Origin: Clostridium sp. CAG:921
GTDB lineage: Bacteria; Bacillota; Clostridia; TANB77; CAG-465
Length of the DNA stretch: 18,110 bases
Assembly: GCA_000433135.1 (NCBI GenBank)
Contig: HF991993.1
Coordinates: 6,331-24,440, forward strand
Direction of reading: 5' to 3'
Part shown: in pieces, positions 8,160 to 15,758 of the stretch
Position numbering within the stretch: the first letter of the stretch is position 1
Layout: each line of letters opens with the position of its first letter
Made by a program: the position numbers and the translations under genes
The notes under the pieces: generated by a model
Databases searched by the model: none
What the model saw: only the letters and a program-made list of their open reading frames with translations
Told to the model about the DNA's origin: nothing

Positions 8160-9506
8160 ATGAAATATAACAATATACAACAAGTACGTGATAACAACAG
8201 TACTATTTATTCTTTGATAAGCAATTTTATTTCTTCTTCCAATACAGAAGGGTTTATTTTAGATCCGGATGGTAACATAAAAATATCAGATCCTTATAAG
8301 AAAATTATAGCACTTGAGATTGAAAAAATACAAAGAATCTATCAGACTGAATTTCCAAGAGTAAATTATAAGGGAAATCCAAACATTAATATTCTAGCAT
8401 ATATTGGTAACAACTGTGATGCATGCTTTGGATATAAAGAAAATGCAATAAAGTATTCGTATGGCATAAAGAAAACATTTGAAGAGTTAAGACATGGAAA
8501 ATATAATGGTAAAAAGCTAGGATATACTATAGATAATAAAGGAAGAATATTATATAAAGAAAATGGAAATAATCAAAAATTAAAATGCAATCTTTTTGAA
8601 CAAGATGAGAGTGTCCCATACCTTTTAAAAGATGAAGAGGCAATTGAAAATGATTATGGTATCGAAACCGAACAGTTATATTTTTATTTAAATGAGTCAA
8701 AATATGAAAATTATTTTTTTAGTGTTATGCCACATGAATTAGGGCATGCTTTCGGATTTGGTACTGGATTATTTGAGGGATTAACAGAAGAGATATCAAG
8801 AGAAATATCTAAAAAATATAATTTAATCAATCTTCCTTTTGCAAGACAAGATTTTGTTAAATTTATACAAAGTATAGAAAAAATAATCGGTAGAGATAAT
8901 TTAGTTGAAAATGCTAATTTAAATAACAATAGTGTTGAAAATACAGATGAAATTTCAAAACTAATTGGAGATAAAGCAAATCCAGAACTCAGTAGATCAT
9001 TTTGCGAATTGATGTATTTGCTTAATTCTCAAAACAAACTACTAGAAGAAATAAAAAAAGATAAATTCGATGATATTTTGTTAAAAAAGGTAGAAAATGG
9101 GGAATTAAACATTAATGAAGCAAGAAGATTATCTCAAGTTCATTTTGAAGAAACCGGATATAATAAAAAAATTTCAGACTCCAATAGAGTGCTAAATCAG
9201 TGTTTTTCAAAAGCGTCTCTAATGTTAGATGAATACATAAAAAATAATCCAGATAAAGTCTATGAACTTGGATCAAGTGAATATACATCTAATTTAGACT
9301 ATAGCCATATCATTGAAGCACAAGAAAATGAGATTTCTGTTTTAAAAGATTTACTAAAAGACCTGATTGTTGAAAAAGACTCTAAAAACTCCTTTTTTGC
9401 ATCATTAAGTGAATTGGTAAACGATGAATGTGAAACCTTAATACAATCTAATGATAATATATCTAGTGAAAGTCATGAAAAAATAAAAATAGAAAATTTA
9501 AAATAA
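8160..9506 (+). CDS. putative zinc metallopeptidase-like protein (HELGH...EGLTEE), cytoplasmic
   Basis: The 448-residue protein is not a recognised family member. The informative part is PHELGHAFGFGTGLFEGLTE: H192 and H196 with E193 form an HExxH zinc motif, and E206 in the EGLTE segment (or E210) could be the third ligand, as in gluzincin-type enzymes. There is no signal peptide or membrane helix, so it should act in the cytoplasm unless exported by another route. The C-terminal half is helical and rich in Asn, Lys and Glu. An AGGTGA ribosome binding site precedes the ATG. Alternatives are an inactive relative or a peptide-binding protein. Confidence 0.6.
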   Translation: MKYNNIQQVRDNNSTIYSLISNFISSSNTEGFILDPDGNIKISDPYKKIIALEIEKIQRIYQTEFPRVNYKGNPNINILAYIGNNCDACFGYKENAIKYSYGIKKTFEELRHGKYNGKKLGYTIDNKGRILYKENGNNQKLKCNLFEQDESVPYLLKDEEAIENDYGIETEQLYFYLNESKYENYFFSVMPHELGHAFGFGTGLFEGLTEEISREISKKYNLINLPFARQDFVKFIQSIEKIIGRDNLVENANLNNNSVENTDEISKLIGDKANPELSRSFCELMYLLNSQNKLLEEIKKDKFDDILLKKVENGELNINEARRLSQVHFEETGYNKKISDSNRVLNQCFSKASLMLDEYIKNNPDKVYELGSSEYTSNLDYSHIIEAQENEISVLKDLLKDLIVEKDSKNSFFASLSELVNDECETLIQSNDNISSESHEKIKIENLK

Positions 9507-11008: not shown

Positions 11009-11790
11009 TTAAATACCAGGCATTCCAACTCTATATTGTCCCTTAGTTTGTAAACCACCTATTCCATTTATTCCTTCTCTTGTATTACTTAGTATATTTT
11101 CAAGTGGTACATACTCATCTACTGGAGTTAAAGCAATAGTTTGTGCTACTATCATTGGATCCATCATATCAATTAATACTCTTTTTGGTGCACTAGCAAA
11201 ATTAGCTCCAGCTGAAATTAAAGCCTCGTAATAACTTTGACAGGCACCAGCAAATATTACCAAATTATCTAAATTATGTTCATATCTCCTTGCTTCTAAT
11301 ACTCCTTGCAAATAATATTTTGAATTTTTATAATTTTCAATATTATATATATCATTTCTTTTTCTTAAAAAAGCATCATGACCAGTTAGTATTAATATAT
11401 TAGGCCTTATTTTTTGAAGCAGTCCATATACTTGCTTATATTGTTCACTTTCGGGAATATTATATGTATAAGCAATAAGTCCCATATTTTTATAGTTTTC
11501 TTTACATTTTTGTGTATATTCAGGATCTCCATCAATGTGTAATATAATTCCCGGCTTTTTTAGAACTGCTTCTCTCTTAAAAAAATTTGGATTTTCATCC
11601 TCTTTTTTGATGTCATTTCCATACATATTTTGATTAAATCCATTATTCTTACTATACATACTACTTTTCTTGTTCATATTCATATAGCATCTATTAACTC
11701 TTACTCTTCTTGACAATTCATCATTTTTGTTTCTTCTTTCAGCTTCCTCATCTGATATATGCTTTAAATCATACTCAGGAGCATCTGCTA
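11009..11790 (-). CDS. yabG: sporulation-specific protease YabG, C-terminal segment of a split gene
   Basis: This segment encodes all but the first ~43 residues of YabG, the mother-cell protease that processes spore coat and cortex proteins. Recognisable parts are PGIILHIDGDPEYTQKC, ILILTGHDAFLRKR and VIFAGACQSYYEALISAGAN. The His of TGHD (residue 179 in the rejoined protein) and the Cys of GACQ (residue 225) correspond to residues reported as catalytic in this family. The frame has no proper start: it enters from the attL core (codons for IADAPEYDLKHIS) and meets a stop (11816-11818) inside the element. An in-frame TTG at 11714-11716 has no good ribosome binding site and would lose the conserved N-terminus. 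Joined to 15628-15758 it gives an in-frame 301-residue protein; Bacillus YabG is about 290. Confidence 0.93.
11784..11790. other. attL-type junction core of the yabG element
   Basis: TCTGCTA on the plus strand is repeated exactly at 15628-15634. It marks where the yabG sequence ends and element sequence begins. To its left AGCA makes a small palindrome with the core (AGCA-TC-TGCT), placing the likely crossover dinucleotide at TC (11784-11785). The element-side arm is TCTGGTGAC at 11797-11805. Confidence 0.8.
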
Positions 11791-11811
11791 TTATTGTCTG
11801 GTGACAACTTT

Positions 11812-13560
11812 TTATTTAATTTTTTCTAAAATACTAATCAAAAAATTTTTTTCACTCTCATCTATTTTATTAATTGATAAATTTACTTCAATCTTTTCTG
11901 TTTGGCTATTATAATATGCACTCTCTATAAGTAAATTCATTATATATCTTTTTGTTTTTAGATCATATTCATCAAATACATCAAAACAGTTGTCAACAAT
12001 TTCTAATATATTCAAATTTTCTTTTGATATATTTTTATTTTCCTGTATCTGGCAGTTGTTGATATTACAATTTTTTTTCATTTTTTCTTGTATATTCTCA
12101 TTTTGCTTATTTAATCTAATTATTTCCTCATTTATAACATTCACCAATGAAGAATCAATATATTTAACCTTTCCAACTAAACTATTTATTTCGTATTTAT
12201 TTTTTTCATATTGTTTTTTTAATTTTATAATTTCTTCATCTTCTCTTTTAATATTTTTAGATATTGACATTTTTTTTAATTCTTTATATATTTCAGAATT
12301 TTGTACAAATATATTTTTCAAAACATTTAATATTTCATTATCAATAAAATCTCCCTTTACATTTTTTGAATTGCACTTTATTTTTCTTGACTTTTCTTTT
12401 AGTACACAAGAATAATAATATGAAATAGTACCATCTTTCTTCTTATTTCCACTATTTTTAGGTCTCATATATGATCCACAGTCCTTACATCTTAATATTC
12501 CCACCATAATAGTATTTTTATTTGAATCTGTAACAGCTCTATATTTTTTGTCTGCATTTTTTTCTAATAAAACTTGAACATTAATAAAATCTCTGCCAGA
12601 AATTTGACCTTGATGTAATCCAACAGCCACAATCCATTCCTCAATAGGTAAAATTTTATTATCTTTTGTTTTATTATATGCAATTAATCCATATTTCCCA
12701 TTAAATTTATCCCTTCCATCATTTTCGAAAAAAATATGGATTCCTTTATTATTGCAATATTCTAATATATCATTATCATTTTTTACATATACTAAATTAG
12801 TAAGTATCCTTCTTAATGTAAATGTACTATAATATACTCCTTTTCTGGTTTTTATATTATTTTGTATTAGGTATGTTTCTAATTTTACTAATGATTTTAG
12901 TTCTAAATATTTTGAAAATATTATATCTATATCTTTCATTTCATCCTTATTAGTTATTAATTTACAAGCTTTTTTTACTCTATTTTCAATAAAATCATCA
13001 GAATTTTTTTCACACACTGTTACTTTTTCATACCTTTTTACACTGTAACCTGTCGGTGTATATCCACCAAGCCATATTCCAGTTTTAGCTAATTCCAACA
13101 TATTATCTCTTATTCTTTCAGCAATCACTTCTCTTTCTAATTGTGCAAATACTGATGCAATATACATCATAGCTCTTCCAATTGGTGTTTTAGTATCAAA
13201 TTGCTCTTTTATTGATATAAAACTAGTATTAAGTTTATTTAATTCATTCACTAAATAAGAAAAATCTGCTAAATTTCTACTAATTCGATCTAATCTATAA
13301 CAAATAAGTATATCATAAGGTTCATTTCTTTCATCATCTAAAAGCTTTTGAAATTGAGGTCTTTTAAAACTACCACCCGAGAAACCTTCATCTTCATATA
13401 TTGCAATTTCTGTATCATATAAATCTTTTGGATAATGTAAGTTTATATAATTTAATGATAATTCAACTTGATTTCCTACTGAATCACCTTTATCTGTATA
13501 TTTAGATTTTCTAGAATAAATTGCAATTCTTTTTTTCACTTTCACTTCATCACTCTCCAT
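11812..13560 (-). CDS. large serine recombinase of the yabG element
   Basis: This large serine recombinase (582 residues from the chosen ATG) carries an N-terminal resolvase domain (about 10-155) with catalytic S19 in IYSRKS and the RLDRISR motif (89-95). EREVIAERIR (142-151) lies in the linker helix. A Recombinase domain (about 160-280) follows, then a zinc ribbon (C358, C361, C385, C396) and a coiled-coil region. It appears intact. The stop is only 22 nt from the attL core, the usual position for a recombinase beside its attachment site. The start is uncertain: a TTG at 13566 has AGGT 8 nt upstream, the ATG at 13560 is used here, and a GTG at 13545 lies 7 nt after GGAGAG. Its expected role is excising the element to restore yabG. 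Confidence 0.92.
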   Translation of the reverse strand: MESDEVKVKKRIAIYSRKSKYTDKGDSVGNQVELSLNYINLHYPKDLYDTEIAIYEDEGFSGGSFKRPQFQKLLDDERNEPYDILICYRLDRISRNLADFSYLVNELNKLNTSFISIKEQFDTKTPIGRAMMYIASVFAQLEREVIAERIRDNMLELAKTGIWLGGYTPTGYSVKRYEKVTVCEKNSDDFIENRVKKACKLITNKDEMKDIDIIFSKYLELKSLVKLETYLIQNNIKTRKGVYYSTFTLRRILTNLVYVKNDNDILEYCNNKGIHIFFENDGRDKFNGKYGLIAYNKTKDNKILPIEEWIVAVGLHQGQISGRDFINVQVLLEKNADKKYRAVTDSNKNTIMVGILRCKDCGSYMRPKNSGNKKKDGTISYYYSCVLKEKSRKIKCNSKNVKGDFIDNEILNVLKNIFVQNSEIYKELKKMSISKNIKREDEEIIKLKKQYEKNKYEINSLVGKVKYIDSSLVNVINEEIIRLNKQNENIQEKMKKNCNINNCQIQENKNISKENLNILEIVDNCFDVFDEYDLKTKRYIMNLLIESAYYNSQTEKIEVNLSINKIDESEKNFLISILEKIK

Positions 13561-13578
13561 ATACAAATTTTATTACCT

Positions 13579-13608
13579 AATATTTGTATATACAAATGTA
13601 CAAATATT
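13579..13608. repeat. inverted repeat cluster between small ORF and recombinase
   Basis: AATATTTGTA (13579-13588) and TACAAATATT (13599-13608) are perfect 10-bp arms, with another TACAAAT inside (13591-13597) and one more at 13562-13568. The hairpin covers the stop of the small ORF and lies directly before the recombinase ribosome binding site, so it could control recombinase translation or bind a regulator. Confidence 0.5.
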
Positions 13609-13768
13609 AATTTTTTTCTAAATAATCTAAAATTTTATTATATATCTCTTTCTTTTTTTCAAATTCTACCTCAAGATTTTCTATTTGTGTTTTAATAAAA
13701 AGAGCTTTTATATAAGCAATATTATTTATATAATTATCATTAGTAGGATAATTTACTTTTACATCCAT
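13607..13768 (-). CDS. 53-residue protein upstream of the recombinase; candidate excision factor
   Basis: This small ORF starts MDVKVNYPTNDNYINNIAYI and ends in a charged helix (ENLEVEFEKKKEIYNKILDY) likely to form a coiled coil. It has a GAGGG ribosome binding site 5 nt before the ATG and is followed by the recombinase on the same strand. No known family was recognised. Large serine recombinases need a recombination directionality factor to excise, and these are often small, unrelated proteins encoded beside the recombinase (SprB of SPbeta is 58 residues). Size, position and the sigma-E-like promoter make this the best candidate on the element, but function is inferred. It could instead be a regulator or non-functional. 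Confidence 0.6.
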   Translation of the reverse strand: MDVKVNYPTNDNYINNIAYIKALFIKTQIENLEVEFEKKKEIYNKILDYLEKN

Positions 13769-13784
13769 AATTTCCCTCTATAAA

Positions 13785-13813
13785 AATTTATGATAAGTAA
13801 AATATTAATATTC
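13785..13813 (-). promoter_or_regulatory. candidate sigma-E (mother-cell) promoter for small ORF and recombinase
   Basis: On the minus strand GAATATT (13807-13813) is 14 bp before CATAAATT (13785-13792). These match the Bacillus sigma-E boxes (kmATATT, CATACAhT) at every position but one. It sits between a terminator and the small ORF, where a promoter is required. A caveat is that the predicted start (about 13778) would leave a very short leader, with the ribosome binding site almost at the 5' end. Confidence 0.5.
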
Positions 13814-13835
13814 ATATTTTCAGTTTTTTGAGTAT

Positions 13836-13868
13836 AAAAAAATGAGCTGAAAATACGCTCATTTTTTT
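13836..13868. terminator. bidirectional terminator after the cysteine peptidase gene
   Basis: AATGAGC and GCTCATT stems around a 9-nt loop carry T-runs on both strands. It lies 50 nt past the stop of the peptidase gene and isolates the small ORF-recombinase unit from upstream transcription. Confidence 0.85.
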
Positions 13869-13918
13869 TAAAACTTTTTTACCTAATCATATTTTATAGT
13901 AAATTTAGTTTTTGTAAA

Positions 13919-14590
13919 CTATTTTAAGTAAATATGGACTGATGTCATATTCATATTACTACTATTAAAATTAATCCAAGTATATTCAGGTGCACTCCAC
14001 CCAGTACATGTATATAACTGTTTTATTCCGTCCATGACACGGTAACCAAGAACTAGATATCCATGATTATTATAGCTCATTATGACTGGGTATCCAAATT
14101 TTAAATCTCTTGTAACATCAGACCAAAGATTTAAAAGATATTTATCATAACTGAAACCGTAACCAGCATTTTCTACATATGATTTTAAAGCACTCGGTAT
14201 TTTATTTAAATCACTACCATTTGATATGCTATATCCTAATCTAGCACAAATATCATCATACATACTTTGTGTTATTGTTCCAAAATATAAATTACCATAT
14301 CCTAAACTTTTATAGTAAGATAACACATTTGCTAATAACGTTGGTCCACAGTTATTACCATACTGATATTGTGAAAAATCACTTGTATGGTACCTAGTAA
14401 AACTATTATAATTAAGTAAAAAAATCTGGTCTGTCACGGTGAATTGTGATGCAAAGTGTTCATCAATTATCTTTACAATTTCAGTGCTATAATTTGTTTC
14501 ATTTGCATAAGCAGGTACTATATCTAATGACACAAAAATAACAAAGATAGTAACAAAAGCTCGCCGCATCGCGTTTAAAATAGATTCCAT
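13919..14590 (-). CDS. secreted papain/C39-like cysteine peptidase, element cargo
   Basis: The 223-residue protein has a signal peptide (basic MRRAFVTIFVIF region, probable cleavage after AYA near residue 29). The mature part contains GNNCGPTLLANVLSYY with C81 as likely nucleophile, and NNHGYLVLGYRV with H176 as likely catalytic histidine, the pattern of C39-like secreted peptidases; Q76 may help form the oxyanion hole. No other domain is present. It is translated from AGGAGG before the ATG and has its own extended -10 promoter upstream. The target is unknown: other roles of this fold include bacteriocin-leader cleavage and host- or wall-protein cleavage. It has no obvious part in excision, so it is best seen as cargo. 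Confidence 0.75.
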   Translation of the reverse strand: MESILNAMRRAFVTIFVIFVSLDIVPAYANETNYSTEIVKIIDEHFASQFTVTDQIFLLNYNSFTRYHTSDFSQYQYGNNCGPTLLANVLSYYKSLGYGNLYFGTITQSMYDDICARLGYSISNGSDLNKIPSALKSYVENAGYGFSYDKYLLNLWSDVTRDLKFGYPVIMSYNNHGYLVLGYRVMDGIKQLYTCTGWSAPEYTWINFNSSNMNMTSVHIYLK

Positions 14591-14643
14591 ATTAAATCCT
14601 CCTAATTATATTCAAATTTTCAATTTATACCATTTCTTGTATT

Positions 14644-14667
14644 TTAAGGTCCATGTATTATATACAT
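14644..14667 (-). CDS. possible 7-residue leader peptide (MYIIHGP)
   Basis: ATG at 14667 opens a seven-codon ORF ending in TAA. It is preceded by AGGAGG at ideal 5-nt spacing, stronger than most sites in the window. It lies between the promoter and the peptidase gene, so it could be an upstream regulatory ORF. It may equally be the remnant of a longer gene. Confidence 0.35.
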   Translation of the reverse strand: MYIIHGP

Positions 14668-14717
14668 TTTTTCCTCCTATAAACATTATTTAATGCTTAT
14701 TATTTATTTTTTATTAA

Positions 14718-14746
14718 ATTATACCATTAACATATAATTAATTAAA
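14718..14746 (-). promoter_or_regulatory. extended -10 promoter of the cysteine peptidase gene
   Basis: On the minus strand TGGTATAAT gives a perfect TATAAT with a TGn extension (14718-14726). A weak TTTAAT -35 is 17 bp upstream. The spacer 14747-14858 holds one small palindrome (AGTTTG-CA-CAAACT near 14834) and nothing else recognised. Confidence 0.6.
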
Positions 14747-14858
14747 CATTTTCAACAATATTCGACAAAAGTAGACATCCTATTATTTCTAATATAACCT
14801 CTACATAAAACATTATGTAAAGTTTTTTATTTTAGTTTGCACAAACTATTCGATATAC

Positions 14859-15287
14859 CTAAAATACCATATTAGTATCGTATTTTATAATTATATCTTT
14901 TATATTATCAAATACATTATCATTAGTTTTATATATTTTGTTACCATTAATAACAATTTTTTTTCTACCAATATTAATATTTACTTTTTTATTATTTTTA
15001 GTATTTAATATTACTAATCTGCAAAAACCACCTATTATATCCTCATTATCAAATGATATGTCTACATTAGTATTCATCAAACTATTTAGTATAACGTTTA
15101 TATCCTTTTTATCTGTAATTAATACTTCTTTATTAGTCGATATATTTTTAACATAAATTTCTATATTATTAATATCTGTATTATGTTTATATACTCCATT
15201 TAAATCTATCTTTTTATGAGATAAGATATTAAATAAAAAGATTATCAACATCAATATTAATATAATTACAATAATTTTTCTTTTCAT
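14859..15287 (-). CDS. small membrane-anchored extracytoplasmic protein, element cargo
   Basis: The 142-residue product has a single N-terminal membrane segment (about residues 5-23: IIVIILILMLIIFLFNIL) and no lipobox. A small soluble domain follows, with strand-like repeats and a C-terminal IYKTNDNVFDNIKDIIIKY helix. It resembles short anchored proteins common in Clostridia, but no family was identified with confidence. GGAGG lies 7 nt before the ATG, and a good sigma-A promoter is upstream. It is inside the yabG element and upstream of the peptidase, but with a separate promoter. Function unknown. Confidence 0.6.
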   Translation of the reverse strand: MKRKIIVIILILMLIIFLFNILSHKKIDLNGVYKHNTDINNIEIYVKNISTNKEVLITDKKDINVILNSLMNTNVDISFDNEDIIGGFCRLVILNTKNNKKVNINIGRKKIVINGNKIYKTNDNVFDNIKDIIIKYDTNMVF

Positions 15288-15324
15288 ACTTTATCCTCCA
15301 AACAAAAATTAAAATGTTCGTATT

Positions 15325-15353
15325 ATTATATCAATAATATATTACATTTACAA
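15325..15353 (-). promoter_or_regulatory. sigma-A promoter of the anchored protein gene
   Basis: On the minus strand TTGTAA and a perfect TATAAT are spaced 17 bp, about 40 nt before the start codon at 15287. Confidence 0.65.
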
Positions 15354-15428
15354 TATTCAAATTTATTTTACAATAATTGTATACATAATATTTTATGTCT
15401 TGTTACATAAGTTCATAACCTTATTTTT

Positions 15429-15497
15429 TTATATATAATAACGTATTCTGCCTACTAAACCATTAATTTTAAAAAGCAAAATGCTTGGCTTGTCCAT
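15429..15497 (-). CDS. 22-residue ORF, possible gene remnant
   Basis: A short ORF (MDKPSILLFKINGLVGRI, then RYYI and stop) lies in the otherwise empty right end of the element (15354-15607). AGGGG and AGGT are upstream at poor spacing. The KINGLVGRIRY segment faintly recalls the N-terminus of some mobilisation relaxases, so it may be a degraded remnant; this is a weak impression only. Confidence 0.2.
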   Translation of the reverse strand: MDKPSILLFKINGLVGRIRYYI

Positions 15498-15611
15498 TGT
15501 TGTAACCTATTCCCCTAGATTTATTATTTTATCTTTAATTTATTTAAATAATTTCATAAACAACATTATCAGCATTCATTACCTTTTCAACATTTATCTA
15601 CTTTTCTGTCA

Positions 15612-15758
15612 TCAGAATAGAGTTGCTTCTGCTAAAATTCTTACCGTAAGCCCAGCAAGTTCAACAATTCCATTTTGATTTACTTTTGTAATCTTAAACA
15701 AGACATCGTAATTGTATGATTTTCTTGCCACTATATCTCCAACTTTAAAATTTTCCAT
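15612..15758 (-). CDS. yabG: sporulation-specific protease YabG, N-terminal segment of a split gene
   Basis: A 48-residue open frame starts MENFKVGDIVARKSYNYDVL and runs through IVELAGLTVRILAEATLF before a stop inside the element. The first 43 residues match the conserved YabG N-terminus (Bacillus: IGDMVARKSY..DVLFRI and EVRLIAD). The ribosome binding site AAAGGGATG precedes the ATG. At the core repeat the reading phase (xTA GCA GAx) is identical to the C-terminal segment, so recombination gives VRILADAPEYDL with no frame shift. Before excision, only a useless 48-residue peptide is made. Family knowledge says yabG is transcribed late in the mother cell; no confident sigma-K or sigma-E promoter was found upstream. 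Confidence 0.9.
   Translation of the reverse strand: MENFKVGDIVARKSYNYDVLFKITKVNQNGIVELAGLTVRILAEATLF
15628..15634. other. attR-type junction core of the yabG element
   Basis: This is the second copy of TCTGCTA. The element-side arm GTCATCAGA is at 15608-15616, 11 bp from the TC dinucleotide, exactly mirroring the arm at the other end (TCTGGTGAC, 11 bp from TC). Right of the core begins intact yabG 5' sequence. Confidence 0.8.

Follow-up and report, generated by a model that had tools for sequence, protein, structure and literature searches.

A sporulation gene in two parts

How might a gene that lies in two pieces, each of which runs into a stop codon, still give rise to its protein? The question is raised by yabG in an 18,110-nucleotide stretch of Clostridium sp. 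CAG:921 (GenBank assembly GCA_000433135.1, contig HF991993.1, positions 6,331 to 24,440 of the forward strand; this whole stretch is hereafter called the window), where the gene is cut at about codons 42–44 by a 3,844-bp element encoding a large serine recombinase, the precise removal of which, computed as a join of the two flanks, restores the yabG frame. On the minus strand, the N-terminus of YabG (MENFKVGDIVARKSYNYDVL...VRILA; the protein of this piece begins MENFKV) extends from 15758 to 15628 and meets a stop at 15614 after EATLF, and the C-terminal part (ADAPEYDL...) extends from 11790 to 11009, its frame being closed by an upstream stop at 11818. The motif TAGCAGA (TCTGCTA on the plus strand) stands at both junctions, 15634–15628 and 11790–11784, in identical codon phase; in the window as a whole it occurs four times on the minus strand and not at all on the plus strand. 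The two shared cores are offset by 3,844 bp, and deletion of this length leaves 906 nt, that is, 301 codons and a stop. The joined product scores 302.4 bits against TIGR02855 (cut-off 270.4), whereas the C and N parts score 256.7 and 34.9 bits, both below the cut-off. An initial annotation, made from the letters of the window, had claimed just this: a yabG split by a recombinase element whose excision would restore it, a 7-mer shared in codon phase and a stop inside the element closing each half. Each of these claims stands, and the split of yabG, together with its exact restoration on removal of the element, is real and well beyond chance.

The same annotation had asked whether the yabG of relatives aligns across the junction, and it does. 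Seven relative loci were found by search with the yabG 3' piece, and in all seven the gene runs unbroken through VRI-(I/L/T)-A-(D/N), the place of the cut in the window, with 60–75% identity to the window over the C part; the locus is shared with rpsT in six of the seven (L001, L003–L007) and with rpsJ in five (L001, L004–L007). Moreover, a public protein set searched for the joined product contains P0241, which stands for 32 clustered sequences and has an ENA contig of 9,462 bases; this protein is 301 residues long, agrees with the predicted product at 299 of 301 positions and is identical across the junction. Since P0241 matches the joined product, close kin carry the predicted joined gene, either as excised cells or as strains that were never hit, with both of which the cluster is compatible and between which it does not separate.

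Our preferred reading, to which we give a probability of about 0.77, is that yabG is interrupted by an element encoding a large serine recombinase of its own, and that precise excision of the element, which would recreate the 301-codon gene, likely takes place in the mother cell during sporulation. We infer the excision, its timing and the role in it of a small open reading frame (ORF) to be as follows. Sigma-E would switch on a 53-residue ORF in the mother cell from a promoter 16 nt upstream; the recombinase and the 53-residue factor would join the two attachment (att) sites inside the GA of GCAGA; and yabG would thereby be restored in the mother cell, with the element staying in the chromosome of the spore.

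Anatomy of the element

Read in the direction of yabG, the element holds genes for a 142-residue protein and a 223-residue C39-like peptidase, the 53-residue ORF and the serine recombinase (Table 1). The recombinase frame is open, with the Resolvase, Recombinase and Zn-ribbon domains of Pfam, and ends about 20 bp from the right core; its start is uncertain, as the listed TTG gives 584 residues and a 98% identical relative (P0001) begins seven codons later, giving 577. Searches of the element against Pfam and PHROG found no mobility or phage genes other than the recombinase; in particular, with regard to phage structural and replication genes, the recombinase is the only one of the four ORFs with a PHROG match. 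An intron or intein was rejected because no such domain was found, while a recombinase with att-like cores is present. An identity with SpoIIIAE for the 142-residue cargo protein was likewise set aside, at 19.9 bits against an NCBIfam cut-off of 247. By eye, a terminator-like hairpin is seen at 13836–13869, between the gene of the C39-like peptidase and the promoter of the 53-residue ORF, which would insulate the recombination genes from transcription of the cargo.

Table 1. Features of the interrupted yabG locus (positions are those of the window; aa, amino acids)
Feature	Position	Strand	Basis and remarks
yabG 5' part, up to att core	15628..15758	-	PF05582 37.3 bits, TIGR02855 34.9 bits; reads on into the element, stop 15614
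att site at yabG 5' part	15606..15634	-	core TAGCAGA 15634-15628, arm TCTGATGACAG 15616-15606
Intervening element, 3,844 bp	11785..15628		cut between G and A of shared GCAGA; offset of shared TAGCAGA
Cargo: 142-aa protein	14859..15287	-	without Pfam or PHROG family
Cargo: 223-aa C39-like peptidase	13919..14590	-	PF13529, 25.2 bits (cut-off 24)
Sigma-E-like promoter GAATAT-N15-CATAAATT	13785..13813	-	16 nt before the 53-aa ORF; match to the sigma-E consensus
Conserved 53-aa ORF, probable recombination directionality factor	13607..13768	-	profile match upstream of recombinase, 20/41 element loci vs 0/80 phage loci; 224 proteins
Large serine recombinase, 584 aa from TTG (possibly 577 aa)	11812..13566	-	PF00239, PF07508, PF13408; PHROG integrase family; TP901-1 integrase domain in PDB
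att site at yabG 3' part	11784..11807	-	arm TTGTCACCAGA 11807-11797, core TAGCAGA 11790-11784
yabG 3' part, att core to stop codon	11009..11790	-	PF05582 283 bits, TIGR02855 256.7 bits

When the ends of the element are joined, the arms TTGTCACCAGA and TCTGATGACAG each lie 12 nt from a centre within the GA of the core. Around this centre 17 of 32 positions pair, against a random mean of 9.7, a value reached by 0.8% of random joins with a fixed centre and by 7% with the best of nine centres, and therefore modest when taken alone. The arms of a second yabG element, in genome G026, also pair at 17 of 32 positions and contain a perfect 10-bp block, GTCAACAGAC / GTCTGTTGAC. These two figures were obtained with the centre fixed, after a scan with several centres per site had put wrong centres first at both yabG sites; at three other sites, where the centre was misplaced, pairing came to 6, 9 and 11 of 32, and to 22, 19 and 16 at the best neighbouring centres.

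Constraint on yabG and other interruptions of the gene

The two parts of yabG are free of stops and frame changes over the 301 codons and are under constraint, the ratio of nonsynonymous to synonymous change (pN/pS) being 0.17 (5' part) and 0.21 (3' part) against L001 and 0.17–0.48 and 0.21–0.41, respectively, over all seven relatives, at synonymous divergences (dS) of ~0.8–2.0 that make it only a rough guide. The recombinase frame, the cores and the arms are intact as well. These features are not those expected of a parasitic or decaying insertion, in which yabG would be dead or dying in the carriers and the joined form in the database would come only from strains that were never hit. Such decay would be compatible with P0241, which does not show the excision inferred here, with the presence of recombinase relatives in genes without a known link to sporulation, and with the retention of a YabG match in 307 of 385 sampled genomes of the order, so that not every spore former of it was found to keep one. 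Two further genomes speak against it. In G026, a 67% identical recombinase directly adjoins the C part of yabG at the same codons as in the window, and this C part is also open; the N part, with one frame change, and the left att site lie on a separate contig. In G025 (L190, G025:C1 158000–177000), where no match to the window recombinase was found, the yabG 5' part persists, with a left att end that matches and lies at this same site, and is followed by other genes, one of them transposase-like by eye, and then by a copy of ~190 bp of the yabG 5' region, differing at one base and fused to the C part. This fused yabG has in turn lost its last 40 residues (near residue 251), which are cut off by ~7 kb containing another serine-recombinase-like gene, as judged by eye; the locus is a relic at the same yabG site without a recombinase of the window type. 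Taken together, a decaying insertion is distinctly improbable, and excision with restoration of yabG is the better account of the locus.

The yabG parts lie 8.4 kb apart at G074:C2 28539–37846 (L191), with two other serine-recombinase-like ORFs between them, and 41.6 kb apart at G280:C5 4847–47276 (L192, L193); in these two genomes yabG thus seems to be interrupted elsewhere along its length by different elements. Many genomes (at least 48) have more than one YabG match, which suggested further insertions, but most of those inspected are contiguous with a change of frame.

A family of recombinases with several target genes

In the sampled genomes, a profile built from three recombinases finds matches (E<=1e-60) in at least 36 of the 385, a lower bound because only three candidates per genome were scored. 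The element loci examined number 41 (38 fetched, L031, L032 and the window), and the target was taken as the gene at the recombinase 3' side or the gene split around the element; some target labels come from one scanned member per class, with the rest assigned by likeness by eye. So defined, the targets are sigK at 15 loci in 14 genomes, spoVFB at five, a CwlJ/SleB-type hydrolase at five (Pfam Hydrolase_2; NCBIfam gave nothing for two members) and yabG at two, which makes 27 of 41 loci in genes of sporulation type. A further 12 of 41 lie at targets without a known sporulation role, namely an ssuA-like binding protein (five), RhuM/Fic-type genes (four), an ssuC-like permease (two) and a cbiO-like ATPase (one), and the target of two loci (L181, L183) was not assigned. 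Wherever the neighbour is readable, the recombinase has the same orientation as the target gene.

For 12 elements both gene parts are on one contig, and these range from ~3.0 to 10.2 kb: four in spoVFB (G003, G050, G288, G305), seven in sigK (G182, G205, G252, G150, G314, G280, G358) and that of the window. Their cargo varies, as seen by eye, from a FolD-like gene in G003 and a glycosidase-like gene in G050 to little in G288. Recombinases of the clade can also occur several to a genome; G150 has them at sigK, a CwlJ/SleB-type gene, ssuA and ssuC, that of the ssuC site being in two frames (the four loci include L156 on G150:C3, L157 and L169, and two of the four are neighbours).

A tree was made of 37 recombinases, from 28 of the 41 element loci, seven of 80 phage loci and two peroxiredoxin-site loci, leaving out 13 loci (L174–L186) that are mostly partial or split. 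In this tree the recombinases of the window and G026 form one clade (support 100/99). Target gene and recombinase clade go together, in that ten target groups need nine changes, the minimum possible, against a mean of 25.3 after shuffling. The sigK-site recombinases form three lineages outside the others and nearer to phage integrases, from which sigK looks to be, on a midpoint root, probably the older target. As regards phages themselves, a search of viral contigs with the window recombinase as single query gave no relative, and the three-sequence profile gave 138, of which 80 were kept, at 36–46% identity. More distant serine recombinases (33–36%) at L033 (G014) and L034 (G019) abut peroxiredoxin genes that are without their N-terminus, the gene family having been checked for L034.

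Judged by these comparisons, the window element is not a one-off; it belongs to a family of compact elements in several sporulation genes. This breadth bears also on the suspicion of an assembly chimera, raised by the metagenomic origin of many such sequences and by the G026 locus, which is broken over two contigs. A chance fusion of unrelated pieces is hard to reconcile with cores that match in codon phase, with an independent genome that has its recombinase against the same yabG codons, with an 88% identical recombinase (P0002) that reads through into the right junction of the window, with the occurrence of the 53-residue ORF cluster (P0172) on 120 contigs, the longest of 286,749 bases, and with the agreement of recombinase clade and target across genomes; a chimera is thus extremely improbable.

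The small ORF, its promoter and the proposed timing of excision

What might confine excision to the mother cell? A 53-residue ORF is present no more than 500 nt upstream of the recombinase at 20 of the 41 element loci and at none of the 80 phage loci (E<1e-3), three of the 20 having been used to build the search profile; a second scan, covering 36 loci, adds five, to give 25 in total, and a profile of the family finds 224 proteins. In the skin element of C. difficile, the 72-residue protein CD1234 is a recombination directionality factor (RDF) under control of sigma-E and SpoIIID, with a start site 14 bp before the start codon (PMC5025042). Since CD1234 is a small, sigma-E-controlled RDF, the 53-residue protein is, by analogy, probably a directionality factor too.

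In this regard, the region in front of the small ORF is informative. A strict sigma-E-like pattern stands 16–19 nt before 8 of the 25 copies (those of the window, L031, L032, L149, L151, L161, L162 and L177) and before 2 of 446 other ORFs, for which Fisher's test gives 8e-10, a value that overstates independence because the small-ORF copies are related; by target class the figure is 4 of 8 (6e-7). The sigma-E consensus on which the pattern is modelled was written out after the match in the window had been seen by eye, and the test is provided by the other loci, themselves interrelated. A sigma-K pattern was found before none of 18 small ORFs, in a scan that took a wrong start for some loci, L032 among them. 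From the sigma-E-like promoter, the proposal that excision occurs in the mother cell only gains support.

Several results weigh against excision timed in this way. The strict pattern is absent before all sigK-site copies of the small ORF (four of these, L166, L167, L178 and L186, were scored from an internal Met, and a scan from the first Met likewise gave no strict match), as well as before those at RhuM and cbiO sites and before several of those at spoVFB and CwlJ/SleB sites. Two of its eight matches belong to ssuC-site elements, which leaves three readings: a role for these transporters in sporulation, a promoter that predates the targeting, or a pattern unrelated to timing. Comparison of the small ORF with PDB and PHROGs gave nothing convincing, with no match to a known RDF and no solved structure, and no attP or attB strings were found in viral contigs. 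To these points are to be added the 12 loci at targets without a known sporulation role, the dual interpretation of P0241, the high dS and the modest symmetry of the arms.

In other words, the element could instead be an ordinary integrative element, leaving and re-entering at a low rate or on stress, for which a sporulation gene is merely a convenient conserved attB. The 12 of 41 loci and the sigK-site copies without the strict pattern lend themselves to this account, as does the yin element of C. botulinum, the excised forms of which are present at all time points in the experiments described in PMC10747680. It leaves unexplained, however, the placing of 27 of 41 loci in sporulation-type genes and a promoter pattern far above its controls, and it fits poorly with a window element without mobility or phage genes besides the recombinase. 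Excision independent of development is, on balance, unlikely, and excision tied to sporulation remains the reading that we favour.

A wider proposal, for which we regard the odds as even, is that of a modular gate in development, in which a minimal cassette of one serine recombinase and a 53-residue, sigma-E-driven directionality factor would have spread through this order of uncultured gut Clostridia, starting from sigK and moving on to yabG, spoVFB, CwlJ/SleB-type and ABC-transporter genes. To complete sporulation, mother cells would then have to remove as many as four separate elements, the number seen in G150, and the spore line would keep all of them.

Comparison with known intervening elements

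The element of the window splits a sporulation gene, encodes its own serine recombinase and is bounded by att sites that share a core and have inverted arms, as is characteristic of intervening elements; phage structural and replication genes, which would mark a prophage, were not found in the PHROG search. Developmental excision, as in skin, is the likely mechanism. The initial annotation was right in finding no phage genes and in likening the locus to sigK skin and SPbeta; it had not counted yabG among the known host genes, and here it needs correction. In C. botulinum V73 the prophage yin, described in 2023, interrupts yabG, and the restored gene and the circle were obtained by polymerase chain reaction and sequencing (PMC10747680). 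yabG as a host gene is therefore already known, and the authors of that work, in its account of yin, report no other yabG insertion in public databases (PMC10747680).

yin and the window element share the host gene, a serine recombinase with the same three Pfam domains and a small RDF candidate; yin, however, is a prophage related to Caudoviricetes, whereas the window element is of 3.8 kb and has no phage family match besides its recombinase (PMC10747680). Skin, in sigK of C. difficile, similarly pairs a serine recombinase (CD1231) with a small RDF (CD1234; predicted in the window) in restoring a mother-cell gene, and the sigma-E promoter of its RDF gene is close to the start codon, as is the sigma-E-like pattern of the window; it differs in its target, in its larger content (19 skin genes are mentioned) and in an RDF of 72 rather than 53 residues (PMC5025042). 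The gin element in gerE of Bacillus cereus ATCC10987 is, like that of the window, without phage genes, and its excision during sporulation depends on a serine recombinase together with an RDF, but it has 28.6 kb and three serine recombinase genes as against 3.8 kb and one (PMC5595907). The vfbin element of Bacillus weihenstephanensis, described as prophage-like, resides in spoVFB, which is a target of the window's family at five loci (PMC10747680, PMC5595907). SPbeta in spsM of Bacillus subtilis also rebuilds a spore gene by developmental excision, although it is an active prophage and the window element is compact (PMC4191935).

What looks new is the recombinase family, in that it is compact, has several target genes and comes with the small ORF and the sigma-E-like promoter. 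A search of the open literature, which takes in few of the subscription papers, brought up no comparable compact family with several targets in gut Clostridia.

Further observations in the window and the order

Independently of the elements, yabG, spoVFB, sigK and some recombinases are found in two contiguous frames in several genomes (L194–L199, L225–L235, L156, L174–L179, L184, L186). All frame changes inspected are +1 at CGG (6 of 6, and 27 of 27 among the matches listed), in most cases directly ahead of the codon for a conserved glycine, which would fit a reading of CGGN as a single residue, and CGG is otherwise rare in long ORFs of those genomes. RecA is unsplit in 32 of 32 of the frame-change genomes, and no split GyrB occurs among the 26 that have a match (contig ends cut one of them), while 4 of 31 have a split SpoIVA. 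Sporulation genes may favour a +1 frameshift or a four-base codon; a literature search on the CGG frame change found nothing. Elsewhere in the window, positions 8160–9506 of the plus strand encode a 448-residue protein with, by eye, an HELGH metalloprotease-like motif, for which there is no Pfam, NCBIfam or PHROG match.

Significance

To our knowledge, programmed excision in spore formers has been limited to a small number of single cases, the majority of which are prophages. In the present family, a single lineage of compact recombinase elements is traceable between host genes, such that it can be asked why sporulation genes are favoured, whether sigK came first and what the smallest excision module is. 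In this last regard, the two candidate parts, one recombinase and one 53-residue protein, are small enough for a test on a plasmid. The finding also concerns how these organisms are described, since annotation pipelines will label such yabG, sigK and spoVFB genes as broken, and may score their carriers as non-spore-forming.

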